DNA of 45,520 bases, taken from contig JABXJX010000008.1 of assembly GCA_013375375.1 (NCBI GenBank), forward strand, positions 1 through 45,520, given 5' to 3'. A program made the position numbers and the translations under genes. Under the pieces are notes generated by a model. That model had not been told where the DNA came from. It was given only the letters and a program-made list of their open reading frames with translations, and searched no databases. Positions 349-26,930 of the stretch are shown piece by piece. Positions within the stretch are counted from its first letter, which is position 1. Each line of letters starts with the position of its first letter. The stretch is from Desulfobacterales bacterium. Lineage in GTDB: Bacteria; Desulfobacterota; Desulfobacteria; Desulfobacterales; C00003060.

Positions 349-421
349 ATATAACGCTCAGCTTGAGGGGCGTGGGTGGAGCGCCAGCGTAACCCGCGTC
401 CCTCTCAAAGCTGTTGTTCGG
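349..421 (-). other. attC-like recombination site B
   Basis: An imperfect hairpin has arms AGCTTGAGGGGCGTGGGT and AACCCGCGTCCCTCTCAAAG, and its outer boxes end in ATAAC on the left and GTTGTTC on the right, resembling attC cores RYYYAAC and GTTRRRY. The stop codon of the upstream cassette gene (TGA at 405-407) lies inside the site, as is typical of cassettes. The cores are degenerate. Palindrome P1 begins a few bases beyond it, so the array appears to end or be truncated here. Confidence 0.6.
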
Positions 422-1031
422 GGGTGTTTTTTTTATCCATATGTTTCAATAACTCATTCATAGCGACATATTGCTGCATGCCTTTAATCCATGCTAACAA
501 TATCAAAGCTATTGCTGCAAACAGAAAATACGATGAAATGATCCATACAATAAGACATTCTTTTTTTATGAAGCATGCAACAAGAAGAATTATTGAAGCA
601 ATAAGCCAATTTGAACCCACTGCAGAGCCTATATGTTTTAGGGCTATTATCCTTTCAAAATCTTTTAATTCATCTTCCTTGTAAAATTTGAGCAATTTGA
701 TTCTTTCAGATGTGTATTCAAAATCATTTGGTTCCTTAAATTCCGACTTTGTAAATCTTCTATATAAAAACTTCAATAAGGTATTTGGGTTCTTGATTCT
801 GCCTGTAGTAAGCATCGGGCTTAAAGAAAGAACCTCTTGATTTATATATCCCGAAACATATGCTATTCCCAAGGTAAATATAGTAAGCACTGTGTTTTTC
901 GATAGTCGCTCAATGTCATCAAATCCAAATCCTAATGCAAAGGTAATCGAAAGTAGAAATGAGGCACCTCCAATTACATACATTAAGTCTCTGCTAAGAA
1001 ATTTACCAAGTCCTTTTATAATTTCATTCAT
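405..1031 (-). CDS. Integron-cassette membrane protein, unknown function
   Basis: This is a 208-aa protein I do not recognise. Two hydrophobic stretches near the N-terminus (around residues 15-35 and 47-64) and two near the C-terminus (around 140-158 and 162-185) suggest four membrane segments. A charged cytoplasmic-type middle region of about 70 residues (KSEFKEPNDFEYTSERIKLL) lies between them. The ATG at 1031 is just downstream of the attC-like site of the preceding cassette, and the stop lies within the next attC-like site. The gene therefore fills a cassette with almost no spare sequence. There is no visible promoter; it would be read from the leader near 2260 or not at all. Function is unknown. 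Confidence 0.7.
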   Translation of the reverse strand: MNEIIKGLGKFLSRDLMYVIGGASFLLSITFALGFGFDDIERLSKNTVLTIFTLGIAYVSGYINQEVLSLSPMLTTGRIKNPNTLLKFLYRRFTKSEFKEPNDFEYTSERIKLLKFYKEDELKDFERIIALKHIGSAVGSNWLIASIILLVACFIKKECLIVWIISSYFLFAAIALILLAWIKGMQQYVAMNELLKHMDKKNTPEQQL

Positions 1032-1039
1032 CTACTTTC

Positions 1040-1108
1040 ACCAAACGCCCCGGCTCAGAGGTGCTGGACACGAAGTGGCCAGCATCCTTTTGCAGCCGTT
1101 TGTTATGA
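1040..1108 (-). other. attC-like recombination site A
   Basis: On the minus strand the site reads CATAACAAACGGCTG, a stem GATGCTGG/CCAGCACC around the apex CCACTTCGTGT, then AGCCGGGGCGTTTGG. The long imperfect palindrome, the ATAAC core on the gene side and its position between the stop of one cassette gene (about 40 nt away) and the start of the next (about 9 nt away) all fit attC. The R' side (GTTTGGT) deviates from the GTTRRRY consensus. Confidence 0.65.
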
Positions 1109-2259: not shown

Positions 2260-2367
2260 CATAACCATTAAGTGTAAAGAACTAATTCAATGATATTAGC
2301 TATTCTTGAGTTAAACTTTGATTTATTTCATATGATGATATATCATAATCATTTATGAAAAAGCAAT
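2260..2367 (-). other. attI-like leader of relict integron 1
   Basis: About 108 bp aligns without large gaps to 25110-25216. Shared blocks include ATTAAGTGT, GATATTAGCTAT and ATATCATAAT, and both copies end in ATGAAAAA. On the minus strand it ends in GTTATG, the cassette-side recombination core, immediately before cassette DNA. At the other end lies a start codon in the same position as the integrase start of relict integron 2, so this segment should hold attI and the divergent promoters. The parallel was found by eye. Residual identity is roughly 70 percent, and experimental attI function is not implied. Confidence 0.65.
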
Positions 2368-2385
2368 AAGTGGGCCTGGGGGGCC

Positions 2386-3984: not shown

Positions 3985-4074
3985 TGCGTTGAGGGGCAAA
4001 CTTGCCAAAAGGTAGGGACGCAAAGCTTCCGGCCTAAGTTCCGATTTATCGGAATAAGGCAGCGGGGTTGCAAG
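3985..4074 (+). promoter_or_regulatory. Cyclic di-GMP-I (GEMM) riboswitch aptamer
   Basis: The conserved GEMM-I backbone is plain: GGGGCAAAC, then GGGACGCAAAGC, CCGGCCTAAG, a GTTCCGATTTATCGGAA hairpin arm, and AGGCAGCGGGGTTGC. The order and spacing match the class that binds c-di-GMP, including the tetraloop-receptor-like arm. It lies in the 5' leader of the FliD-like gene, directly before an intrinsic terminator, so it probably acts by transcription attenuation. Whether the ligand turns the gene on or off was not determined. Confidence 0.93.
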
Positions 4075-4086
4075 ACGAAGACAAGC

Positions 4087-4124
4087 AAAAGCCCGCTTTT
4101 GCCTTTCCGGAGCGGGCTTTTATT
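4087..4124 (+). terminator. Intrinsic terminator (riboswitch expression platform)
   Basis: An 11-bp perfect stem (AAAAGCCCGCT/AGCGGGCTTTT) with a 13-nt loop is followed by TTTTATTT. It sits between the c-di-GMP aptamer and the ribosome-binding site GGAGG at 4132. This is the usual layout for a riboswitch that controls read-through into the gene behind it. Confidence 0.85.
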
Positions 4125-4142
4125 TCCCAGTGGAGGTGCATG

Positions 4143-5417
4143 ATGCAAATTACCGGCTCCTACAATAATTACGTGAACATGACGAATCTTCTCGCACCAT
4201 TAGGAGCAAGGGGTTCGGCAGATTTAGTCATGCAGGTCTTTTCGTCTGCTGTGGGGAATCTCCAAGACAAGATCAACCAGCAAATATTCTCTGAGGAGTC
4301 TGATGCCGCCATTAAAGAACTTTACAATGAAGTTTCGGATCTGGCCGGCCGGGCTGAAAAATTGACACTAACTTATTTTAATTCCGTCTTTTTTGACCGC
4401 ACACCTACATCCTCGGACTCCAACGTATTGACTGCTACGGCAGTCGACGCCTTTTCTCTCGATTCCGGAGCGGCTGAGGCCACCTATAACATTTCGGTTA
4501 ACCAACTGGCGCTGGCCCAGGAAAACACAGGATTTGAGTTAAATGCAGCCGATCCGAGCGTGGTTAATCCGGGAATCAATACATTCAACATTAACATCAA
4601 CGGCCAGGACCATGAACTCGGCATTGATGTGGTGGATGGTGATACCAACGAGGTCGTACTCCAAAAAATAGTGGCGGCCATCAATGATGCCGGTTTAGGG
4701 GTGACCGGGGAGGTAACTGCCGGCAGTTTAGAGGGGACTCAACAGTTGGTCATCACGGCTGATCAAACAGGCACGGCCGGTTCTTTCACCCTGTCAGACG
4801 TATCTGGTAATGCGGTGACCGTGACAGGCACTGCTACCGTGTCAACTGTAGCTCAAGATGCTGCATATACGGTTGATGGAACCGGCTATACATCTGAAAC
4901 TAATACCATCTATCTGGATAGCGGACTCGTTACAGTCAATCTAAAAGGAGCGGGGGAATCGATCTTGACGGTGGCCCCGGATCAGAACGAGGTCGAAAAC
5001 GCCATAACCGCCTTTGTTTCAGCAGTGAATTCCATTATAGATTTTCTGGAAACCAATTGTGACTACATCGAGGACGAGGTTCTGTCGTCCGTGAATTCTT
5101 TTGTCACCGAGCACAAGAGCGAACTGGAGTCTTTCGGTGTCACCATAGAAGAAGATGGAAAGCTTGTGGTAGATACCTACAATCTGGCTACGGCCGTGAA
5201 CGACGACCTTTCAGGTATTAAAGACGCTTTTGCCGGGTTCGACGGATTGGCCGTACAGGTCAAAAACTATACCGCCCGCATATCGACCGACTCTCCTCTC
5301 AATTATGCCAAGGAAGCCGAGGGTATGAGTAAGGATTTCGTTGATTACCTCTACGGTACTTCAGCGACGATGCTGGAAAAAATCCTCCAGGGGATGCTAC
5401 TCGATACCTTTGTGTAA
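4143..5417 (+). CDS. Orphan FliD-like (flagellar hook-associated/cap) protein
   Basis: The protein is 424 aa from the ATG at 4143; an ATG at 4140 is only 3 nt from GGAGG, so the second is preferred. The N-terminal 80 residues look coiled. The stretch SDSNVLTATAVDAFSLDSG followed by YNISVNQLALAQ is typical of FliD N-terminal regions, and the Ser/Thr/Val-rich middle resembles flagellin/FliD insertion domains. The C-terminal coiled region lacks a strong FliD_C signature that I could confirm. No other flagellar gene is in the window. Control by a sigma-28-like promoter and a c-di-GMP riboswitch supports a role in flagellar cap or surface adhesion. It could instead be a FliD-derived adhesin. Confidence 0.7.
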   Translation: MQITGSYNNYVNMTNLLAPLGARGSADLVMQVFSSAVGNLQDKINQQIFSEESDAAIKELYNEVSDLAGRAEKLTLTYFNSVFFDRTPTSSDSNVLTATAVDAFSLDSGAAEATYNISVNQLALAQENTGFELNAADPSVVNPGINTFNININGQDHELGIDVVDGDTNEVVLQKIVAAINDAGLGVTGEVTAGSLEGTQQLVITADQTGTAGSFTLSDVSGNAVTVTGTATVSTVAQDAAYTVDGTGYTSETNTIYLDSGLVTVNLKGAGESILTVAPDQNEVENAITAFVSAVNSIIDFLETNCDYIEDEVLSSVNSFVTEHKSELESFGVTIEEDGKLVVDTYNLATAVNDDLSGIKDAFAGFDGLAVQVKNYTARISTDSPLNYAKEAEGMSKDFVDYLYGTSATMLEKILQGMLLDTFV

Positions 5418-15991: not shown

Positions 15992-17764
15992 GTGTCGGTG
16001 TTTCGTGTCCGTGTCCGTAAGTCTTGTTCTTTCGGACACGGGAAATGGACGCGAAAGTTTCAATATACTATATCAAAAAACCGAAATCTTTTTCTGAAAG
16101 TGTATAAGGCACAAATTTCACACGAATATTTGTCTGGAAGACTCCAGTGGTTGATGTTTTTGCGACTCATATTTACCACTGTTCTTCTTGGCTCAAGTAT
16201 CCTGGTCCAATTCAAAGATCGTGACTCCCTCATCTCTCCACCCTTCCTGGTGCTGTATGGCCTGATTGCAACCGTCTACATCCTCACTGTTGTATACATT
16301 ATAGTCTTTAAACAACTCGGGCCGAGTCTCAGATTTGCCTATGTCCAAGTTGGGCTGGACACCCTGTTTGTCACTTTTCTGATCTATGTGACAGGCAGCA
16401 TTGCCAGCGTGTTCTCCTTCCTTTACTTGGTGGTTATTATTTACGCCAGTATTCTTCTTTACAAAAAGGGGAGCCTGTTTATAGCGACCCTGTGCAGCAT
16501 ACAGTATGGGGTCATGATAGATCTGGAATACTACGGGATTTTGAAGCCGTTTAATACTGTGGCCGGCCTGAGTATACAAGGATACGAGGAGCCCCATGTG
16601 CTTTACAAGGTCATTATGACTATGGTGGCCTGTTACTTAGTTGCCTTTTTGAGCAGTTCGCTTGCACAACAGACCCTCAGGACGGAGAAAGAGCTTAAGG
16701 CAAAACAAAAAGACCTGGAACAACTGGAGGCCATTAACGCCAGCATTGTATATAGTATGGATAGTGGGCTTCTTACATTGAACTCCGCCAATATAGTAAC
16801 CACATTTAACCGAGCAGCTGAAATGATAACCGGATTTAGTCGAGAAGAAGTACTGGGTAAACCTTTGTCAAACATATTCCCTGATGTGGTTCAGTTTGCG
16901 GCCTCATCAGGGGGGGGGCAAAAAAAAGCATACCGTTATGATGTAGAGTTTAAGAGAAAGGATGGGACAGTCGGCTACTTAGGTTTTTCAATGTCTTCAT
17001 TGAAAGAACCCGATGGAAAGCCTATAGGCAACTTGCTGATTTTTCAAGATTTAACTGCATTCAAAAACATGGAAGAGCATGTCAAAAGGGTTGAGAAGCT
17101 GGCCGCCATTGGAGAGATGGCCGCCGGCATTGCCCATGAAATAAAAAACCCCCTGGCCTCCATGAGCGGCTCGATTCAGCTGCTTAACAAAGAGGTCAAT
17201 ATTACCCCTGTTGCCGGGAAACTAATGGGTATCGTGCTGAGGGAAGCTGATCGGCTCAGCACCCTGGCTAATGACTTTCTCCTGTTTGCACGTCCCGGTT
17301 CTGGTAAAATGGAGTCTGTGGAGCTGAGTTCGGCCATTAGCGACACATTGGAACTTTTCAGAAAAAACGGCGTTTTCCAGAACAGGATTCCAGTGGTCCA
17401 GGATTTTACCACTGACGTGTGGACAGAGATGGACCCCAAGCATACGCGCCAGATCCTTTGGAACCTACTTTTGAATGCAGCTCAGGCTATTGATGGGACC
17501 GGAACCATACACGTCTCATTAAGGACAGTAGAAGATATGGTTCAAGTGACTGTGAGAGATGACGGCTGCGGCATGTCCGAAGAGACTATCAGCAGAATCT
17601 TTGATCCGTTTTTTACCACCAAGGCCCATGGAACAGGCCTGGGACTTTCTATTGTCCACAGGCTTCTGGAATCTTACAACGGGCGACTTGATGTTCAGAG
17701 TCAACAGGGCCAAGGGAGCACCTTCAACCTGTACCTTAAGAGAATAGCCCCACCGGACCTTTGA
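15992..17764 (+). CDS. pilS: PilS-like membrane sensor histidine kinase with PAS domain
   Basis: This is a membrane kinase of up to 590 aa. About six hydrophobic segments (roughly residues 50-230) lead to a coiled linker and a PAS domain (about 245-355, with [20 protein letters not shown]). A HisKA domain has the phospho-accepting His in [15 protein letters not shown], and the HATPase has an N box ([10 protein letters not shown]), DDGCGM and [11 protein letters not shown]. PilS partners with PilR, a sigma-54 activator of pilin genes; no regulator gene follows here. The start is uncertain: the GTG at 15992 lies in a stretch of iterated CGTGTCCG words, and a GTG at 16100 would also precede the first membrane segment. 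Confidence 0.88.
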
Positions 17765-17869
17765 CTTTTCAAGACCGGACCCCGTCTTTTCCGAGGTCTT
17801 CTCTCAGGTTTTAAGTGGTGCACTTGGAACTTGAATTCACCATGAATCTGCTGACGATCGGAGCTAATA

Positions 17870-19180
17870 ATGAAGAAATGGAAGCTTGCCTGGAACGCTG
17901 CCCTCACGATTTTTGCGGTTTTTGCCATAACGGTCATGGTGCCCATAACCGGCTGCACGAAGAAAGAAGAAGATGAGACGAGAACCGTAATTCGCTTTGT
18001 TACGTGGAAGCCCAATCAACCGGAGGTTTGGGAGGAAATTTTTCGACGTTTTGAGGCCGAACATCCTGACATTCGCGTTGTGCGGGAGGTGGGCCCCCAC
18101 TCGACTACCGCCTTTCATGACCTTCTGACGCAGAAGCTCAAAAACCGGAGCCCTGATGTGGATGTTTTTTTCATGGATGTCATATGGCCTCCTGAATTCG
18201 CCTCAGCCGGGTGGGCACTCCCACTTGACGAACGCTTCCCGCACTCGGAACAAGAAAAATTTTTGAGTGGCGCAATCCTCGCAAATTCCTACAAAGGGAG
18301 AATTTATGGTGTTCCCCTATTTGTCGGTAGCGGCATGCTTTATTACCGGAAGGACCTGCTGAAACGCTACGGCTTCACCCCGCCTGATACGTGGCAGGAG
18401 ATGGTCGAACAGGCATGGAAGATTGTGTCCGAAGAGGGAAAGCAGAGAGAACTTTACGGATTTTCCGGACAATTCAAACAGTATGAAGGTCTTGTCTGTG
18501 ATATGATGGAGTACATTCTTAGCAATCAGGGGAGCATCCTCAATCCAAAGACGGGAGGATCTGAAATTGCGAAACCGGCAGCAGTAGGGGCAGTCCGGTT
18601 TGTAAGAGATAGTATCATTGGAGCGATCGCCCCTAAGGGAGTACTCACCTATCAGGAGCCTGAATCGATCGCTCTTTTTATACAGGGCAAGGCAGTATTT
18701 CATAGGAACTGGCCTTATGCTTGGGAGATGTCAAACAATCCGAAGCGCTCTAAAATCGTTGGCAAGGTGGGCATTACAAAACTCCCTCATTTCCCTGGGG
18801 GCACAAGCCACGCTACACTGGGGGGATGGCAACTCGGAATCAGCAAGTATTCTCAAAACAAAAAAGCTGCGTGGACCTTTGTCCGGTTTCTGACAAGTAA
18901 GAAAATTCAAAAATGCCTCGCATTGAAGGCAGGGCTCGCGCCAACCAGAAAAGCGCTCTATGAGGACCACGAAATCATAAAGGCCCATCCTCAGTTTTGG
19001 GACATGAAGGAGGTCTTTTTAACCGCCTATCCTCGTCCGAGAACCCCACTTTATCCGGCACTATCCAATGTCTTACAGCACTACTTCCACAAGGTCATAT
19101 CAGATCCGAATTCGGATATCGAAAAAGAAGCGTTTGCTGCTTCACAGGAAATCGACAGGATTCTTCAGTTGGCCCAATAG
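17870..19180 (+). CDS. Extracellular solute-binding lipoprotein of a carbohydrate ABC importer
   Basis: This 436-aa protein has a lipoprotein signal ending in the lipobox ITGC. The mature part fits family 1 binding proteins: VIRFVTWKPNQPEVWEEI, FEAEHPDIRV, DVFFMDVIWPPEFASAGW, and YGVPLFVGSGMLYYRKDLLK. Such proteins capture sugars (maltose, trehalose or similar) for the transporter encoded directly downstream; the actual sugar cannot be told. It is the first gene of a tight four-gene set with 24-, 9- and 2-nt gaps, so one operon is likely. Confidence 0.92.
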   Translation: MKKWKLAWNAALTIFAVFAITVMVPITGCTKKEEDETRTVIRFVTWKPNQPEVWEEIFRRFEAEHPDIRVVREVGPHSTTAFHDLLTQKLKNRSPDVDVFFMDVIWPPEFASAGWALPLDERFPHSEQEKFLSGAILANSYKGRIYGVPLFVGSGMLYYRKDLLKRYGFTPPDTWQEMVEQAWKIVSEEGKQRELYGFSGQFKQYEGLVCDMMEYILSNQGSILNPKTGGSEIAKPAAVGAVRFVRDSIIGAIAPKGVLTYQEPESIALFIQGKAVFHRNWPYAWEMSNNPKRSKIVGKVGITKLPHFPGGTSHATLGGWQLGISKYSQNKKAAWTFVRFLTSKKIQKCLALKAGLAPTRKALYEDHEIIKAHPQFWDMKEVFLTAYPRPRTPLYPALSNVLQHYFHKVISDPNSDIEKEAFAASQEIDRILQLAQ

Positions 19181-19204
19181 GGCCAATTTCCGCGGCGTGC
19201 AGGT

Positions 19205-20113
19205 ATGAAAAGGAGACATTCATCTATTACAAAAGAGAGAATATTTGCCGTATGGTTACTCATACCATGCTTTCTCGTTGTCTGCATTTTTGCCTTTTAT
19301 CCCATAGTCTATTCTTTCTTCCTCAGCCTGCACAGGATAATACTCGGACTTCCTTCTATTGGCCAACCATTCATCGGGCTCGAAAACTACCGAGCACTAT
19401 TACATGATAGCATCGCACTCCGTTCACTCGTCAATACCTTCGCCTTTGTCTTTATCTCCACATTCTTTGAACTGCTCTTCGGACTTATTATTGCTCTCGT
19501 AATCAACAAGCACTTTATGGGAAGAGGGTTGGTGAGAGCAGCAATCCTCGTGCCATGGGCGATTCCTACGGTTGTCTCATCACAAATGTGGAGGTTTATA
19601 TGTAACGACAACTATGGCCTTGTGAACTATATCTTGTTTGGTTCGGATGTTGCACAGTACAAGGCGTGGCTTGCTGACCCTTTTTTTGCCTTTGCCGCCA
19701 TAGTGGTTGCCGATGTATGGAAAACTTCCTCCTTTGCGGCGCTCCTGATTCTGGCAGGCCTCCAGACTATCCCGGATGAACTCTATGAAACAGCGAAAAT
19801 AGATGGCGCCAATGCATGGCAGCGATTTAGAAAGATAATACTCCCCCTTATCAAACCTGCGTTACTCATTGCGCTGCTGTTCAGGACCATGGATGCCTTC
19901 AGGGTTTTTGACCTTGTCTTCGTCATGACACAGGGAGGACCTGCCAATTCGACGAATGTGCTTCAATTTTACGGGTACAAGAAGATATTTGCCGAGGGGT
20001 TCATGGGGTATGGGTCTACTATTTCCGTGCTGGTGTTTATGACAGTTTTTGTACTGTCATTGCTTTATCTACGGATTATAAGAACGAGACTCTTTGCTGA
20101 AACCGTAACATGA
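19205..20113 (+). CDS. Sugar ABC transporter permease (MalF-type)
   Basis: This 302-aa protein has six hydrophobic segments, beginning with WLLIPCFLVVCIFAFYPIVY. The EAA loop that contacts the ATPase is visible as YETAKIDGANAWQRFRKIIL near residue 195. It forms the membrane channel with the following permease and receives substrate from the upstream lipoprotein. Confidence 0.94.
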   Translation: MKRRHSSITKERIFAVWLLIPCFLVVCIFAFYPIVYSFFLSLHRIILGLPSIGQPFIGLENYRALLHDSIALRSLVNTFAFVFISTFFELLFGLIIALVINKHFMGRGLVRAAILVPWAIPTVVSSQMWRFICNDNYGLVNYILFGSDVAQYKAWLADPFFAFAAIVVADVWKTSSFAALLILAGLQTIPDELYETAKIDGANAWQRFRKIILPLIKPALLIALLFRTMDAFRVFDLVFVMTQGGPANSTNVLQFYGYKKIFAEGFMGYGSTISVLVFMTVFVLSLLYLRIIRTRLFAETVT

Positions 20114-20122
20114 AAGATAGGG

Positions 20123-20941
20123 ATGAAACCATCTAAGCTACTTTTTTATGGAATAATATTTATCATCATCTTCTTAAGCCTCCTCCCCTTTATCTGGTTT
20201 GTCCATACCTCGCTCAAAACCGAGGGAGAGGTTACAGCGATTCCCCCGAAACTTGTCCCGTCAGGATCGCTCAATTTTTACCGCTCAGCCATCACAGACT
20301 ACAATTTGTTGCACTACGTAAGAAATAGTGTCATTGTCGCGGGGGCGACCACATGTGTCACTCTGTTTATATCCGTGTTTGCCGCCTACGCCCTTGCACG
20401 ACTGAGATTAAAATATAAGGGGTTGATTATGGGGAGTCTTTTGCTTGTATCCATGTTTCCACAGATATCAATCGCAGGACCCGTGTGGAAGATATTACAA
20501 GCCCTGGGATGGCTCAATAGTTATCAAGGGCTCATTATTCCCTACGTCACCCTCACCTTGCCGCTCGGTGTCTGGATATTGACCAGCTTTTTCAACGAAC
20601 TCCCCAAGGAGCTTGAAGATGCCGCACGGATTGATGGGTGTACGCGGATTCAGGCACTTTACAAGATCGTAATACCCCTTGCTGCGCCGGGTGTTTTCAC
20701 TGCCGCAATACTCGTTTTCATTTATGCATGGAATGAGTTCTTCTTTGCGCTCCTGATTATGACGCAACAGAAATTCCAGACACTTCCTATTGGAATTGCA
20801 TTGTTCCAAGGGCAGTATACCCTCCCATGGGGAGAGATCGCTGCTGCCTCTACAGTAGCTACCGTGCCACTTGTGGTTGTTGTTTTTCTCTTTCAAAAGA
20901 GAATTGTCAGCGGACTATCAGCGGGCGCAATAAAAGGATAA
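20123..20941 (+). CDS. Sugar ABC transporter permease (MalG-type)
   Basis: This 272-aa protein has six hydrophobic segments, including the early LSLLPFIWFVHTSLK motif typical of MalG-type permeases. The EAA loop is ELEDAARIDGCTRIQALYKI near residue 165. It is the heterodimer partner of the preceding gene. Its stop lies 2 nt before the ATPase start, so translational coupling is likely. Confidence 0.94.
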   Translation: MKPSKLLFYGIIFIIIFLSLLPFIWFVHTSLKTEGEVTAIPPKLVPSGSLNFYRSAITDYNLLHYVRNSVIVAGATTCVTLFISVFAAYALARLRLKYKGLIMGSLLLVSMFPQISIAGPVWKILQALGWLNSYQGLIIPYVTLTLPLGVWILTSFFNELPKELEDAARIDGCTRIQALYKIVIPLAAPGVFTAAILVFIYAWNEFFFALLIMTQQKFQTLPIGIALFQGQYTLPWGEIAAASTVATVPLVVVVFLFQKRIVSGLSAGAIKG

Positions 20942-20943
20942 CT

Positions 20944-22023
20944 ATGGCAGGATTAACGATAAAGAACCTGAAGAAATCATTTGGCACCAACACAGTTATA
21001 CAGGATATCTCCTTTGACGTTTCCGATGGAGCGTTTTGTATCCTGCTCGGGCCATCAGGCTGTGGAAAGACTACCATACTTAGGATAATCGCAGGATTGG
21101 AAGAGCATGACGAGGGTGAAATATTCATGGGGAATAAAGAGGTGGGCAATCTTTCCCCAAAAGAGAGAGATGTTGCTATGGTTTTTCAGAGCTATGCCCT
21201 CTATCCTCACATGAATGTCTATGAAAACATGGCATTCTCACTAAAAGTTAGAAACCTGTCAAAGGATGAAATCGATAGCAAAGTCAGAGAGGCTGCACGG
21301 CTTTTGGACATAGAGGATTTCCTGGACAGGAAACCCAAGAAATTGTCAGGAGGTCAGAGGCAACGAGTTGCTATTGGGCGGGCAATCGTCAGAAGCCCTC
21401 AGCTTTTCCTTTTTGATGAGCCTCTCTCGAATCTCGATGCAAGGCTCCGCAGCACCATGAGGGTAGAACTCGCAAAACTTCATCAGCAATTAGGCACGAC
21501 CATAGTCTACGTTACCCATGACCAGATAGAGGCAATGACCCTGGGAGACAAAATCATATTATTGGATAAAGGCATCATCCAACAGGTGGGCACCCCACAA
21601 GAGTTATACGAGAGGCCATCAAATCTCTTTGTGGCAACCTTTATCGGCAGCCCGCAAATCAATCTCATTGAAGGAAGCCTATTGAGCAACGAAGGGAGAA
21701 TGTTCTTTAAGTCCGGTGGCCTTACTATTGATCTTGGTCCGAGGACCGTGTTGGAAAAGTATTCAGGCAATACGGTAATCTTGGGAATACGGCCGGAGTC
21801 GTTGACGCCAGGGAACGGCCCGATTGTTGGTTCACTGGAAATTATTGAGCATATCGGGTCGGAAAACATTCTGTATGTGGCAACCGATATTGGAAGAATT
21901 ATCGCCAAGGCACCGCCGGATTTTCAGGGGAGAGCCGGAGAGGGGATATCGCTTGCATTAAGAACGACCGATATCCATTTGTTTTATAAGGGAATCAGAA
22001 TCGCAGTTGGGGTTTTGTCTTGA
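20944..22023 (+). CDS. Sugar ABC transporter ATP-binding protein (MalK/UgpC-type)
   Basis: The protein is 359 aa from the ATG at 20944, preceded by AAAGGA; the longer ORF overlaps malG and is rejected. It has Walker A GPSGCGKTT, Q-loop FQSYALYPHMNVYENM, signature LSGGQRQRVAIGRA, Walker B LFLFDEPLSNLDA and the switch His in VTHDQIEAM. A C-terminal regulatory TOBE-like region runs from about residue 240. It is last in the importer operon and would power sugar uptake. Confidence 0.95.
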   Translation: MAGLTIKNLKKSFGTNTVIQDISFDVSDGAFCILLGPSGCGKTTILRIIAGLEEHDEGEIFMGNKEVGNLSPKERDVAMVFQSYALYPHMNVYENMAFSLKVRNLSKDEIDSKVREAARLLDIEDFLDRKPKKLSGGQRQRVAIGRAIVRSPQLFLFDEPLSNLDARLRSTMRVELAKLHQQLGTTIVYVTHDQIEAMTLGDKIILLDKGIIQQVGTPQELYERPSNLFVATFIGSPQINLIEGSLLSNEGRMFFKSGGLTIDLGPRTVLEKYSGNTVILGIRPESLTPGNGPIVGSLEIIEHIGSENILYVATDIGRIIAKAPPDFQGRAGEGISLALRTTDIHLFYKGIRIAVGVLS

Positions 22024-22040
22024 CACCTTTTGGCAAAGAC
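22019..22040 (+). repeat. Imperfect direct repeat flanking the integron island, left copy
   Basis: CTTGACACCTTTTGGCAAAG and the two following bases match 26931-26952 in 19 of 22 positions and in the same orientation. The two copies bracket the island holding relict integron 2 and the DUF4143 gene. They might instead be degenerate promoters, since both contain TTGACA. Confidence 0.4.
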
Positions 22041-22165
22041 TTTTCAACGGGTCCCCAATCATCCAAGCTTTTCCATCGATGGCTTCAAAATTATATTTTA
22101 CACATAACGAGACTGTCGAAAAACTCTTTTCTTCGCTCCAATTGACCATTTTTGAATAAAGATTC

Positions 22166-22226
22166 GGGGTCAAACCTTGATTAGTGATTAGTAAAGAGCC
22201 TTAATCACAGATCAAGGTTTGACCCC
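22166..22226. repeat. Palindromic REP-like element P3
   Basis: The arms begin GGGGTCAAACCTTGAT, extend to about 25 bp with one or two mismatches, and enclose a 10-nt loop. It is nearly identical in its arms to P2 at 2386-2456. It lies at the edge of the truncated attC-like site of the HNH cassette. Confidence 0.88.
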
Positions 22227-22243
22227 AATAGTTCATAGTTCTC

Positions 22244-22275
22244 TTGCCACGTCCGGTGCAGCTACTCGTTAGGGC
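22244..22275 (-). other. Truncated attC-like site of the HNH cassette
   Basis: On the minus strand GCCCTAACGAGTAGCTGCAC and the following bases look like the gene-proximal half of an attC. The core CCCTAAC contains the HNH gene's TAA stop. The distal half with GTTRRRY is missing; about 20 nt later palindrome P3 begins. Confidence 0.55.
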
Positions 22276-23021
22276 TTGCCCCTATAAATACTTTCATTGT
22301 GATACCTAATATGGTCATCACCAATTGTATGTCCGGTAACCATAGCAAGGTCAGTTGATTCTATACGGTAAACACCATAATCCAATTCGGCATGATGATT
22401 TGGACAGAGGCATAATATGTTCTCCATGACATCTGGGCCATTGTGTGGTTTGCCTAGCGGCCGAATATGGTGGGCCTCAGCGTAATTAGAGCTGTCGGGA
22501 AGAACCATGGTATACCCACAAAGCTGACATTTGTAGTGATGAAGTGCCTTCACTCTTCTGGACAGATTTGTGTCACGAATGATTCGATAGGTCGTGATCT
22601 CCTCGCGCTCTGCAGGCGCGTCTATATCAGAGGCTGTAGGCGCCTGTGGAATCGCTGAAAGTGGAAGATGGGGTGTCCAGTCATACTCTTTAGACAATCG
22701 GATTTGGTCTGTCCACCATGCAGTATCGTCTTCAGCTTTACCAAAGAGACCGAAATAGCCTGGCCCGGGTGTGCCCGTGCCAGTATCGATGATTATCCCG
22801 GTTATGGCCGGCTTCCCTTCAGCTTCAGTCCAGTCCGCAAGGGAACTCAGTCCATGTAGTTTTAGACTCCGGCCCCAGGTTCCACCGCGCAAGCTGAGCC
22901 CAAGTTCTTTATGGACGGCCCTATAGCCGACATAGGTATGATGGTCTCCTGGCTCAACGTTTTTCAAATGTTTCACCAGGAAGGATAGTAGGCGCTGACC
23001 TTCCTCGTCCAAGTCACTCAT
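22269..23021 (-). CDS. HNH endonuclease (integron cassette)
   Basis: The protein is 250 aa from the ATG at 23021, which has GGAG 8 nt upstream; the 20 extra residues of the longer ORF come from the attC-like site. The C-terminal HNH nuclease core is complete: CQLCGY, AEAHHIRPLG, a metal-binding LCPNHHAELD, and Cys pairs for zinc. The N-terminal 140 residues, with DHHTYVGYRAVHKELGL, do not match a family I know and may give DNA specificity. HNH enzymes of this layout occur in restriction and other defence contexts. It is the last cassette of relict integron 2. Confidence 0.85.
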   Translation of the reverse strand: MSDLDEEGQRLLSFLVKHLKNVEPGDHHTYVGYRAVHKELGLSLRGGTWGRSLKLHGLSSLADWTEAEGKPAITGIIIDTGTGTPGPGYFGLFGKAEDDTAWWTDQIRLSKEYDWTPHLPLSAIPQAPTASDIDAPAEREEITTYRIIRDTNLSRRVKALHHYKCQLCGYTMVLPDSSNYAEAHHIRPLGKPHNGPDVMENILCLCPNHHAELDYGVYRIESTDLAMVTGHTIGDDHIRYHNESIYRGKP

Positions 23022-23035
23022 TCGTATTCTCCAAG

Positions 23036-23108
23036 GCCCTAACGTATTTTTCACCGGCTGGTGTGGAGCGCAGTGGAACACCAGTCAGGTGCAAAAAATG
23101 GTTATGCC
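23036..23108 (-). other. attC-like recombination site C
   Basis: On the minus strand it reads GGCATAACC, then stem TTTTTTGCACC and CTGGTGT, apex CCACTGCGCTCC, complementary ACACCAG and GGTGAAAAA, and GTTAGGG. The stop codon of the following cassette gene (TAA) is inside the GCATAAC core. The long paired stem with small bulges is characteristic of attC. Confidence 0.8.
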
Positions 23109-24337
23109 TTTTTTTCTATAGTTTTGTACCAGATGATAATACCCCACCTTTCTGGTTCATTTGTCATTAAGAAAATATGCGTCCCTATCAATTTAATTCG
23201 TTCTTCATGTACCGATTCTTTTTTGCCGTCGACATATACAACTGTTTTATATTTATATTCTTTCCCCTTTTTTATTTTTCCGAATCGTCTTTTTATGTCC
23301 TTAGTCGTATAGAACAAATATAATCTGTGGTCACTGTCATAATAATAGGAACAGCCACCTTCTGAATGTTTTGTTATGTTTATACCTGCTATAGTTTCAT
23401 TGTGCTGATATTCCTTATCAAGTTTCAGGGGGTACAACTGTCCCTTTTCTTGAGATTGCCACCGCAGTATTGTATTTGCACCAAAATTATAACAAAATAA
23501 AGCATCTTCTTTTTTCCAAGGTCTCTGCATTACAATGTTGCCATATGAATCTTCTGGGCGATATTTTGAAGGGATATGATCTAAATATTCTTTGAAACGT
23601 CTATAGTCGGTATTGTTAATTCCAAGATAAGTTAGCTCAAGCTCCTCTTTAATTGTTTGAAAGCCGTACATAGCAAAATCATCTTTTTCTTTTGAATACA
23701 CCAGGTTGGGGTAAAGAGCGGTTGATATATTTGAATGTTTGAGTTTCTGGAACAATTCATTTTCAAATGCGTTACGAGTAGAAACAATACTGTCTAACCA
23801 CTTCTTTGAATCAATTTTGTTTTCAGCATTTTTGAGATATTTTTTTGTGATCTTATCTTTAATGACTGATGATATTTTTAAATCATCTAATTTGAATCCA
23901 AAAATATTGACTAAAACTTTATTAAAAAATCTCTCGGTAATTTTGGCAAAACGATCTAGGTCGGCGTATGGTGCAACCGCACCATGCTGAACTAAATTTC
24001 TTGTTTGTCTCAAAAGTTTAATTTCTCCCAAATAAGGTAAACTGACACTTGCGAATTCTTTGAGAGCTTTATTGATAGATGCTGCAAGGTTTGCTAATTC
24101 AAAAGTGTCAAAATTTTTACCTGTTGTTGACTCCAAATCTAGGTGTGTAACGATACATCTCAATATGTATTCTATTGTGTTATCTAAGCCAAGAATTGCT
24201 ATCATATTGTCGAATTCTGTTTGCTGACTTGCATGTTCATGGGCATGGGAAAGCATCAACCGTGCTCTCATCAGCAGTTGCAGCGATTCTTCGTTTGGTG
24301 CAATGGGTAAGTTAATATTAGTTGTAGTTGTTATCAT
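23102..24337 (-). CDS. Cassette protein with HEPN-like RX4H motif, unknown function
   Basis: This 411-aa protein has no family I can name with certainty. The N-terminal 150 residues are helical and contain RNLVQH at residues 113-118, the RX4-6H arrangement of HEPN ribonuclease domains (LLRQTRNLVQHGAVAPYADL). The C-terminal 200 residues look beta-rich, with many Tyr/Trp, and could be a ligand- or target-sensing domain. The stop lies in the attC core. If it is HEPN, it may be an RNA-cleaving defence or toxin protein; this is an inference from one motif. Confidence 0.65.
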   Translation of the reverse strand: MITTTTNINLPIAPNEESLQLLMRARLMLSHAHEHASQQTEFDNMIAILGLDNTIEYILRCIVTHLDLESTTGKNFDTFELANLAASINKALKEFASVSLPYLGEIKLLRQTRNLVQHGAVAPYADLDRFAKITERFFNKVLVNIFGFKLDDLKISSVIKDKITKKYLKNAENKIDSKKWLDSIVSTRNAFENELFQKLKHSNISTALYPNLVYSKEKDDFAMYGFQTIKEELELTYLGINNTDYRRFKEYLDHIPSKYRPEDSYGNIVMQRPWKKEDALFCYNFGANTILRWQSQEKGQLYPLKLDKEYQHNETIAGINITKHSEGGCSYYYDSDHRLYLFYTTKDIKRRFGKIKKGKEYKYKTVVYVDGKKESVHEERIKLIGTHIFLMTNEPERWGIIIWYKTIEKKA

Positions 24338-24352
24338 TTTTAATTTTTTCAG

Positions 24353-24429
24353 GGCATAACGCTTCGCTTAAGAGGTTGGTCGTGGAGCGCAGCAGGATGA
24401 CCAATCCTTCTTCAAGCGGTTGTTATGCC
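24353..24429 (-). other. attC-like recombination site D
   Basis: This 77-bp site has perfectly complementary outer boxes GGCATAAC and GTTATGCC. Inside are paired segments CGCTT/AAGCG, AAGAGG/CCTTCTT and TTGGTC/GACCAA around an apex GTGGAGCGCAGCAGGAT. The TAA stop of the HEPN-like pseudogene is within the core. It is the clearest attC in the window. Confidence 0.85.
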
Positions 24430-25096
24430 GACTTTTGTTTTGTATCCCATTCTTTGTATCGATCAACTAGGTCTTCTAGCAAGAGGCGCACTTGCGAAAA
24501 CGTTTCTTTTGCAAACTCTGAATCAATCAACAAATAATTGTAGTATGAAGAGATCCCTAAATTTCGTTTTTCCAAAGCCTTCATCTTTCTCTTGATTTTA
24601 TCATTCGCCATATCCAGCCTGCCATTTGCGTGGGCTATTGTATGACGAACGTCAGCAAGTATTTTTATTCGTTGCCAAGCATTGACATCGCTGCACAAGT
24701 CAAATTGAAGAAGATTTTTGTAATATTTCTTTGCTCTGTCAAGAAAGTCACCTCTAAGGTCATTGATGCCGATTCCCTGTTTTTGTGCCCGTTGAAGCAA
24801 ACGCGCTATTTCTATTACGCTTGTTTCGAGGACTGCATATAAAGACACAATAAAGGGGCCCCAAAAAAAACGAGGGAGGAGGACTCTAACTTTGCTATCG
24901 TATTCCTGCCGAGCTATATGCCATTCTGGATCTTCCGGCGTTAAACCTTCTTTTTTTCTATACTCATCAAGCGTTAATCTTTCTGAATTACTTAGATGTG
25001 TAATTTGTTTTTCTTTTCTATGATTTCATAATGATCTTCAAGGGCATGAAGCTCTAAAGATACATCAAGCAATCGAAAATCAAGATCTATCTTCAT
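24423..25096 (-). pseudogene. Frameshifted cassette gene, HEPN-like RX4H protein
   Basis: The ORF track shows only the 141-aa downstream part from a GTG. Reading upstream, the same frame continues to about 25008, and a start ATG at 25096 with AAAGGA 5 nt upstream opens the other frame (MKIDLDFRLLDVSLELHALE). Adding one base in the A5 run at 25008-25012 joins them into about 224 aa. The C-terminal part has VRHTIAHANGRL, an RX4H motif typical of HEPN domains. It is the first cassette after the attI-like leader. It may be a true pseudogene or a homopolymer sequencing error. Confidence 0.7.
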
Positions 25097-25109
25097 TTAT
25101 TTCCTTTGG

Positions 25110-25216
25110 CATAACAATTAAGTGTTAAGATTTTATTCAACGATATTAGCTATCGAAATATTATTTCTTGATATTTTTCTTTTACGAGATATCATAATAT
25201 TTAATGAAAAATCAAG
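25110..25216 (-). other. attI-like leader of relict integron 2
   Basis: It is homologous to 2260-2367 (shared ATTAAGTGT, ATTCAA, GATATTAGCTAT, ATATCATAAT). The cassette side ends in GTTATGCC on the minus strand, 6 nt before the ribosome-binding site of the first cassette gene. The other side reaches the integrase start codon at 25204. It should contain attI, the cassette promoter and the integrase promoter; TTGATA followed by ATATCATAAT fits a rightward integrase promoter. Confidence 0.72.
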
Positions 25217-25650
25217 GATTTAATAATCACAAAAACCTCGCAAACTACTCGATCAGGTACGCGATGTCATGCGTTTGAAACACTATGCTTTTTTTACCGA
25301 GCGCACTTATCCCTTATGTTGCATAAACAACCCGGCAAGAATGTGATAAAACCAAGGTGGTAAAGGGTTCCCTGAGTTTATCGACCGCTTGGGACAAACG
25401 CACACGTGGTCAATTCCAGAAACGTTATGATATTTGCCGAGTTGTTCACCCTTCGGGAAAGCCGATGATACCGCATCTGCTGCGTTGTCAAGGATTCGGC
25501 GTAAATTACTACAGCCTCACCCTTGACGCCTTGCATCTGCAGCATCCTAAACTTTTGCAACGTTAGGGTTATATAGGCTGGATCAAACGGTTCATCCTTT
25601 TTCACGACAAAAAACATCCCAAGGAGATGGGGAATCAGGTGAGAATAGGA
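25204..25650 (+). pseudogene. intI: Integron integrase remnant (intI), interrupted and truncated
   Basis: Two pieces of the N-terminal SAM-like domain of an integron tyrosine recombinase are visible. The first, after an ATG at 25204 and a one-base loss in an A5 run near 25231, reads KPRKLLDQVRDVMRLKHYAF then FTERTY. The second, after a 258-bp insertion, reads IGWIKRFILFHDKKHPKEMG. Removing the insertion and one copy of the TTAT duplication joins them exactly at TERTY-IGWIKRF, as in IntI proteins. All catalytic residues (RHRRY) are missing. Its direction is opposite to the cassettes. Confidence 0.85.
25311..25568. mobile_element. 258-bp MITE-like insertion in intI
   Basis: Its ends, CCCTTATGTTGCATAAAC and (complement) CCCTAACGTTGCAAAAGT, form an imperfect 18-bp terminal inverted repeat. 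It is flanked by TTAT on both sides (25307-25310 and 25569-25572), a 4-bp target duplication. Precise excision restores the integrase reading. The internal ORF (25357-25566) has no recognisable transposase motif. I could not assign it to an IS family; it may be a non-autonomous derivative. Confidence 0.75.
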
Positions 25651-25727
25651 AAAATTGATATTTCCTTGACATAATGCTTCATTTTTGCTTAAATTATGGA
25701 AACAACAATTCCAATACGGAAGCAAAT

Positions 25728-26882
25728 ATGGATACAAAGATTCGTTTTTTCCAGGATGCGAAGCAGAGCTTTTTTCTGTTTGGCCCGCGAGGAACAGGAA
25801 AGTTCACATGGGTTAAACAGCATCTGGGGAATGCACTTATTATAGACCTTTTGGCACCGGAGGTATACCGGCCTTACTCAGCTAAGCCGGAGAGGCTACG
25901 GGAAGTTGCCGAGGCGCAAACTTCCGGCAACTGTATTGTAATAGATGAAATTCAGAAATTGCCTCAGCTCCTGGATGTGGTACATCAATTAATGGAACAG
26001 CGTGCAGGATGGCGTTTTGTATTAACAGGCTCCAGCGCAAGAAAGCTAAAGCGGTCGGGAGTGGATTTACTTGCAGGACGTGCTGTGGTTAAAACGATGC
26101 ATCCGTTTATGGCTGCCGAGCTGGGTGATGAGTTTTCCCTGGAAGGGGCCCTTGCTTTAGGCATGGTTCCCTTGGTTCTGGATGCAGTAAGTCCCAAAGA
26201 GGCGATTGACGCTTATATTGCCCTTTATCTCAGGGAAGAGGTTCAGATGGAAGGGCTTGTCCGCAATATGGGTAATTTCAGCCGGTTTTTGGAATCCGTT
26301 AGCTTTTCGCACGGAGCCGTTCTTAACATTTCAGATGTTGCTCGGGATTGCCAGGTAGAGCGCAAAACCGTAGAAGGCTATGTTTCAGTCCTCGAAGATT
26401 TGCTTTTGGCCTTCCGCATACCCGTTTTTACGAAACGCGCCAAGCGGCACTTATCGTCACATCCCAAATTTTACTATTTTGATGCCGGGGTTTTCAGGTC
26501 TGTACGTCCTGCAGGGCCACTTGATGCGCCTCAGGAAATTGACGGAGCAGCTTTAGAGGGGCTTGTCGCTCAGCATCTTCGCGCATGGAATTCTTATAGG
26601 GGAGATGCATACAAACTTTATTTCTGGCGCACAAAATCAGGGAATGAGGTTGACTTTGTAGTTTACGGACAGGATACGTTTTTCGCTATAGAAGTTAAAA
26701 ACACGGCAAAGATACACTCTAAAATGCTCAACGGATTACTCGCTTTTAGAGAAGATTACCCTGAAGCACAAACCTGTCTGCTGTATCGGGGCAAAGAGCG
26801 CATAAAAATAAAAAACATATTATGCCTGCCATGCAAAGAATTCTTAATGAACCTGGTACCTCAAAACCCGATTCGGTTATAA
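25728..26882 (+). CDS. AAA-type ATPase with DUF4143 domain
   Basis: The protein is 384 aa from the ATG at 25728 (MDTKIRFF). The N-terminal ATPase contains a Walker A-like GPRGTGKFT, Walker B CIVIDEIQKLPQLL and sensor FVLTGSSARKLKRSG. The C-terminal DUF4143 region (about 190-380) includes YLREEVQMEG, FYYFDAGVFRSV, and a nuclease-like EVDFVVYGQDTFFAIEVKN. In this family Walker A is usually GKST or GKTT; here Phe follows the Lys, so ATP hydrolysis may be weakened. These ATPases are often found singly in accessory regions, sometimes linked to toxin-antitoxin functions, but their role is unclear. Confidence 0.87.
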   Translation: MDTKIRFFQDAKQSFFLFGPRGTGKFTWVKQHLGNALIIDLLAPEVYRPYSAKPERLREVAEAQTSGNCIVIDEIQKLPQLLDVVHQLMEQRAGWRFVLTGSSARKLKRSGVDLLAGRAVVKTMHPFMAAELGDEFSLEGALALGMVPLVLDAVSPKEAIDAYIALYLREEVQMEGLVRNMGNFSRFLESVSFSHGAVLNISDVARDCQVERKTVEGYVSVLEDLLLAFRIPVFTKRAKRHLSSHPKFYYFDAGVFRSVRPAGPLDAPQEIDGAALEGLVAQHLRAWNSYRGDAYKLYFWRTKSGNEVDFVVYGQDTFFAIEVKNTAKIHSKMLNGLLAFREDYPEAQTCLLYRGKERIKIKNILCLPCKEFLMNLVPQNPIRL

Positions 26883-26930
26883 TTCAAGAAAAGGAGGGAA
26901 GGCGAATAGACCCACCGCCCAGCCTTTTAC

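Follow-up and report, generated by a model that had tools for sequence, protein, structure and literature searches.

Two relict integron heads on one Desulfobacterales contig, probably acquired by separate insertions

Two similar segments, at positions 2260–2367 and 25110–25216, lie on one contig of a Desulfobacterales genome, and the question is what these segments are and how both came to be there. The window, by which we mean the whole stretch of 45,520 nucleotides that was analysed, had been predicted from its letters to hold two relict integron heads. We aligned the two segments and observed a match over their whole length (107 bp, 73.8% identity, E 3e-13, blastn). The local alignment score of the pair was 80, as compared with a mean of 20.4, a standard deviation of 3.4 and a maximum of 39 for 2000 pairs shuffled with dinucleotides preserved. 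The alignment is thus clearly above that of shuffled AT-rich sequence, the level at which the prediction would have failed; since the score far exceeds the shuffles, the likeness is real and the observation of paired segments stands. The source metagenome-assembled genome (MAG; 2.18 Mb in 197 contigs, 87% complete) contains just two copies of the segment, both in the window, with the next matches at E values of at least 0.1. An Rfam search returned no match at either head.

The edges of the match coincide with the landmarks of an integron. The left edge is CATAAC, which reads on the minus strand as GTTATG, the integron crossover core with the GTT of attI. On the right, the match runs into the beginning of intI, with its start codon, and stops just past ATGAAAAA.CAA. 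Each segment is therefore a leader running from the intI start to the first cassette with a G^TT crossover, as in an attI head. Head 1 (attI/leader, 2260–2367, minus strand) has the core GTTATG, with AAC at 2263–2265 of the plus strand, and is conserved as far as the start codon of intI. Head 2 (attI/leader, 25106–25216, minus strand) has the core GTTATGCC, with AAC at 25113–25115 of the plus strand. On the right, head 1 (up to 2367) is flanked by a conserved chaN-like gene encoded on the minus strand, and head 2 (up to 25216) by intI debris and a DUF4143 ATPase gene. The original prediction had each head followed, on its own strand, by cassette-type genes with attC-like hairpins; such cassettes are present, but are found on the left-hand side of each head and are transcribed from the minus strand.

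Array 1 consists of two cassettes on the minus strand. Cassette gene 1 (1149–2144) encodes 331 aa and cassette gene 2 (405–1031) encodes 208 aa, neither with a Pfam match. The attC-like hairpin after cassette 1 (1034–1104, minus strand) has weaker boxes and a fold z of -2.2, and that after cassette 2 (355–425, minus strand) has a GCGCTCCA loop and a fold z of -1.9. Array 2, also on the minus strand, begins with a HEPN-like gene that is apparently frameshifted (cassette 1, 24423–25098), followed by an attC at 24354–24428 (R'' GCATAAC, R' GTTATGC; fold z -3.7), a gene of 411 aa with no Pfam match (cassette 2, 23102–24337), a second attC at 23037–23107 (GCATAAC / GTTAGGG; fold z -3.4) and an HNH endonuclease-like gene (cassette 3, 22269–23081). 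The second attC has a 79% match within the leader-bearing array of another locus, L102. Foldable attC sites with RYYYAAC/GTTRRRY-type boxes are thus present next to both heads, being clear in array 2 and weaker in array 1. With two clear attC sites and an intI pseudogene only, array 2 belongs to the class called CALIN (at least two attC, no intI). From head 1 rightward to array 2, we found no attC-like site except one at 4643, which is weak and lies within coding sequence. Between the heads we also noted a FliD-like flagellar cap gene (4068–5417) that is directly preceded by a c-di-GMP-I riboswitch (3985–4075, 70.5 bits).

Neither head has a complete integrase gene. At head 1, the intI stub (2355–2369, plus strand) reads ATG AAA AAG CAA TAA and keeps 4 codons, after which a palindrome, GGGGTCAAACCTTGA...TCAAGGTTTGACCCC, takes over and the remainder of intI is gone; the intI profile had no match to the right of this head. 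At head 2, intI keeps about 57 codons and is disrupted by a frameshift, an insert of 259 bp and a truncation. The plus strand to the right of 25204 encodes integrase debris, LLDQVRDVMRLKHYAFFTERTY and then GWIKRFILFHDKKHPKEMG, which we compared with the intact intI of L080 (the Meg22_02_Bin_90 locus). The 5' part (25204–25309, plus strand) is 89% identical in DNA to the L080 gene over its first 104 bases and has a 1-base deletion. The insert (25310–25568) has TTA on each side and an ORF with no Pfam match. The continuation of the remnant (25569–25638, plus strand) is 96% identical in DNA to L080 over 71 bases and is then truncated; this second block is 96–97% identical to L083 and L080, as compared with 89% to the G122 type. 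There was no intI above the cut-off anywhere in the source MAG, at its 87% completeness. The frameshifts could in principle be MAG assembly errors.

Palindromes and other elements adjoin the remnants. REP-like palindromes (GGGGTCAAACCTTGA, with a GGGGTCAAGTCTGCTCTTG variant) occur at 2387–2455, 22166–22226 and 268–336, so placed that they flank array 1 at both ends and array 2 at its far end; they seem to intrude into the ends of attC or intI. The GGGGTCAAACCTTGA-type palindrome has 13 exact matches in the genome. Beside the palindrome at 268–336 is a small minus-strand ORF (81–269) with weak helix-turn-helix matches, possibly the end of a REP-associated transposase. The AAA_14/DUF4143 ATPase gene that adjoins the head 2 intI remnant (25674–26882) matches the PADLOC candidate family PDC-S01 (8e-52).

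We next turn to the leader in other genomes. A degenerate pattern of the leader, run against a collection of 84,980 species, hit 30 stretches, all of them in MAGs named Deltaproteobacteria, Desulfobacteraceae, Desulfobacterales or Candidatus Desulfaltia; the viral collection had no match. In Desulfobacterales MAGs, there are about 69 de-duplicated copies (59 with a length of 80 bp or more), mostly in one family, ETH-SRB1/Desulfaltia (here f24), where the leader occurs in 16 of 17 genomes with up to 10 hits per genome. Five of the 69 copies stand before a complete intI (profile 1–315) and five are cut by a contig end; the other 59, including both window heads, have at most an intI fragment. Across 58 copies, column identity is about 0.25–0.38 to the left of the AAC/GTT core and mostly 0.45–0.8 from the core on, a drop that arises because the DNA beyond the crossover differs from copy to copy, as attI predicts. 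The expectation that the leader always lies between intI and the first cassette therefore holds for its position and boundary (58 copies), but intI itself has usually been lost. Since the same leader fronts an intact intI in five relatives, the prediction of two relict heads of common ancestry, from a deltaproteobacterial (here Desulfobacterales) lineage, is upheld, and there is little doubt in our minds that both segments are relict integron heads.

Several further features of these relatives were observed. Many f24 copies share a truncation point of intI across genera, forming '...CTCTGCTTGAGAATAGTGTAACATC', '...CTAAGCGAGATAGGGGGAAGCGGGAATATTGGAGC' and '...GATCAGGTGCGTTGACGCC' groups, and some leader copies are in tandem (L090, at 4619 and 5914). 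The recurrent f24 stubs are either old truncated heads that were copied around or whole integrons that repeatedly decayed at the same points. We also noted TTTTCTTTTGCGATTTTTTCACC to the left of the leader in L087, L097, L106, L190, L198 and L209; in L090, L081 and L104 it stands on the other side, right of the intI stub, a pattern such as a unit formerly arranged in tandem would leave. In two loci with intact intI (L083 and L080), genes that by eye resemble IS91-type transposases adjoin the attI crossover on the cassette side. An attC scan with narrow core boxes missed most of the relatives' sites and relaxed versions still found few; however, the flanks of L096, L101 and L102, when read directly, hold attC-like hairpins with other boxes, so that an empty scan in these relatives is not evidence of absence.

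The leaders may also carry a promoter. A possible integrase promoter is present on the plus strand of head 1 (2318–2346, TTGATT-17-TATCAT) and of head 2 (25168–25195, TTGATA-16-TATCAT), each on its own not above shuffle expectation, and a loose -35/-10 pair is kept in 50 of 59 leaders. For a Pc promoter, consensus scans of the heads gave no excess over shuffles.

Duplication had been suggested as the source of the two heads, and homologous heads within one 45-kb contig are what would be expected if one integron had been duplicated locally, with both copies then decaying and diverging. The two heads, however, are not mutual closest relatives. Head 1 is 80–87% identical to heads of f24 (G171, G023, G268, G235 and G215), and head 2 matches L083 at 79% identity and L080 at 77%, as compared with 72–74% between the two. 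In the tree, head 1 falls within nested clades of 9, 14 and 19 rows (support 95/90, 97/89 and 99/95) with head 2 outside, and head 2 groups with L083 and L096 (88/90; 96/76). Forcing both window heads together made the tree 14 log units worse, but with an AU test p of 0.189 on 110 columns a clade of the two is allowed and the tree alone does not settle separate origin, the case for which is carried by branch support, identities and empty sites. In the sister species, the end of the histidine-kinase gene (at about 17,765; junction at 17762–17768) is joined straight to lysS (26904 on), indicating that the 9.1-kb stretch carrying head 2 was inserted in the present species. The sister species also have no head 1 beside the chaN-like gene, and have other DNA where array 1 adjoins that gene here; head 1 is only 2.3 kb from the contig end, so the left bound of its insertion cannot be set. 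The leader was absent from all other sampled genomes of the genus. The flanks of the two heads are not shared, and the genes between them keep the order that is conserved in the genus, and no flank is duplicated. With each head nearer to heads of other families, the two in different supported clades and both insertions missing from the sister species, the suggested duplication is not supported, and we consider it improbable. Separate acquisition is the likely alternative.

Two further explanations dispense with two integron captures. The 107-bp block could be a dispersed promoter-like repeat, similar to a MITE and unconnected to integron function here; it is multi-copy in ETH-SRB1-family genomes, mostly with no intI, and its tandem copies and recurring right-hand junctions would suit such an element. 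By contrast, a MITE-like repeat would not account for a right end at the intI start codon and a left end at the attI crossover, for the five copies that adjoin intact intI, or for the attC-bearing cassettes that adjoin the heads in the window, and we regard it as somewhat less probable still than duplication. It could also be that binning or assembly fused ETH-SRB1-like DNA to this genome, which the lack of the leader in other sampled members of the genus would favour. However, the genes at 2.4–17.7 kb and from 27 kb are syntenic with the genus at about 71–88% DNA identity, a synteny that anchors the contig at both flanks of head 2 and at one flank of head 1, and the window heads are only 79–87% identical to the nearest f24 leaders; such an artefact is the least probable of these explanations.

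The insertion that contains head 2 is a species-specific island of 9.1 kb (17768–26903) between the histidine-kinase gene and lysS, comprising a sugar ABC operon, array 2, head 2 and the ATPase gene. An imperfect direct repeat, GAATAG(C/A)CCCACCG, lies at both ends of the island (17735–17765 and 26900–26925), at the 3' end of the histidine-kinase gene. In one sister genome (G271), this site holds a short insertion that differs from the island and has a similar repeat, so that insertions may recur at this point as at a hot spot. The LysS protein of this contig has 71–88% identity to that of most genomes in its genus, and its identity to that of f24 is about 65–68%, whereas the head 2 intI remnant is 89–96% identical in DNA to intact f24 intI; this difference points to a transfer between families, from or with f24.

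We therefore favour separate insertion of two integrons, at a probability of about 0.85 for the reading as a whole, in which the window holds two relict heads of different sub-lineages, entered separately, with dead integrases. The homology of the heads, their boundaries, the dead intI genes, the attC-type hairpins, the absence from the sister species and the closer relatives elsewhere are direct observations. On this reading, the two heads (attI, promoter region and first intI codons) would be the remains of two relict chromosomal integrons, descended from two sub-lineages of an integron family centred on ETH-SRB1/Desulfaltia. In the working state, an integrase made from the rightward-read intI would have joined circular cassettes at the GTT of the leader's left edge, and the leader promoter would have expressed the cassettes leftwards; both integrons were presumably once active. 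With both integrases dead, the short arrays, of two and three cassettes, are frozen. More tentatively, orphan heads that keep only the first intI codons may be a multi-copy dispersed class in ETH-SRB1/Desulfaltia and, by transfer, here, and may possibly still serve an integrase in trans as cassette acceptors or promoters. Two independent head captures would thus lie in one short stretch, and because their sites are empty in the sister species one can read off in what order gain and decay took place. The wider set of copies also suggests that attI heads can outlive and outnumber the integrase genes of a lineage.

Broken integrons are well known. Pseudogenes make up about one third of intI genes, and 20% of the bacteria with integrons contain more than one integrase gene, for which duplication and transfer have both been proposed (PMC2426708). 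Like those pseudo-integrons and multi-integron genomes, the present one has broken intI and more than one integron; however, that survey begins from intI and would miss heads with attI and a few intI codons. Heads of this sort may escape surveys based on intI or on attC clusters, whose counts of integron gains and of cassette entry points may then be too low. In the open-access literature, as far as titles and abstracts go, integrase-less heads were not described as a class, which is a weak negative. CALIN and In0 are names for the halves of a broken integron (PMC9668308). The window resembles CALIN in having attC cassettes without an integrase, which IntI in trans could excise or capture, but differs in that an attI head is still present. 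It is also, like In0 (integrase, no attC sites), one half of a broken integron, although In0 keeps intI without cassettes and here the reverse applies, cassettes being kept and intI lost. There is also a likeness to the relict chromosomal integrons of Xanthomonas, where frozen cassette arrays stand behind dead intI (PMC12444791): in both, there is an attI/intI region, a frameshifted or deleted intI and short frozen arrays. Xanthomonas, however, has one ancestral integron at ilvD, whereas here the heads of two sub-lineages lie on one contig at sites that are empty in sister species. We conclude that the window is of a known kind, that of broken integrons, and that the unusual part is the many intI-less heads in one family.
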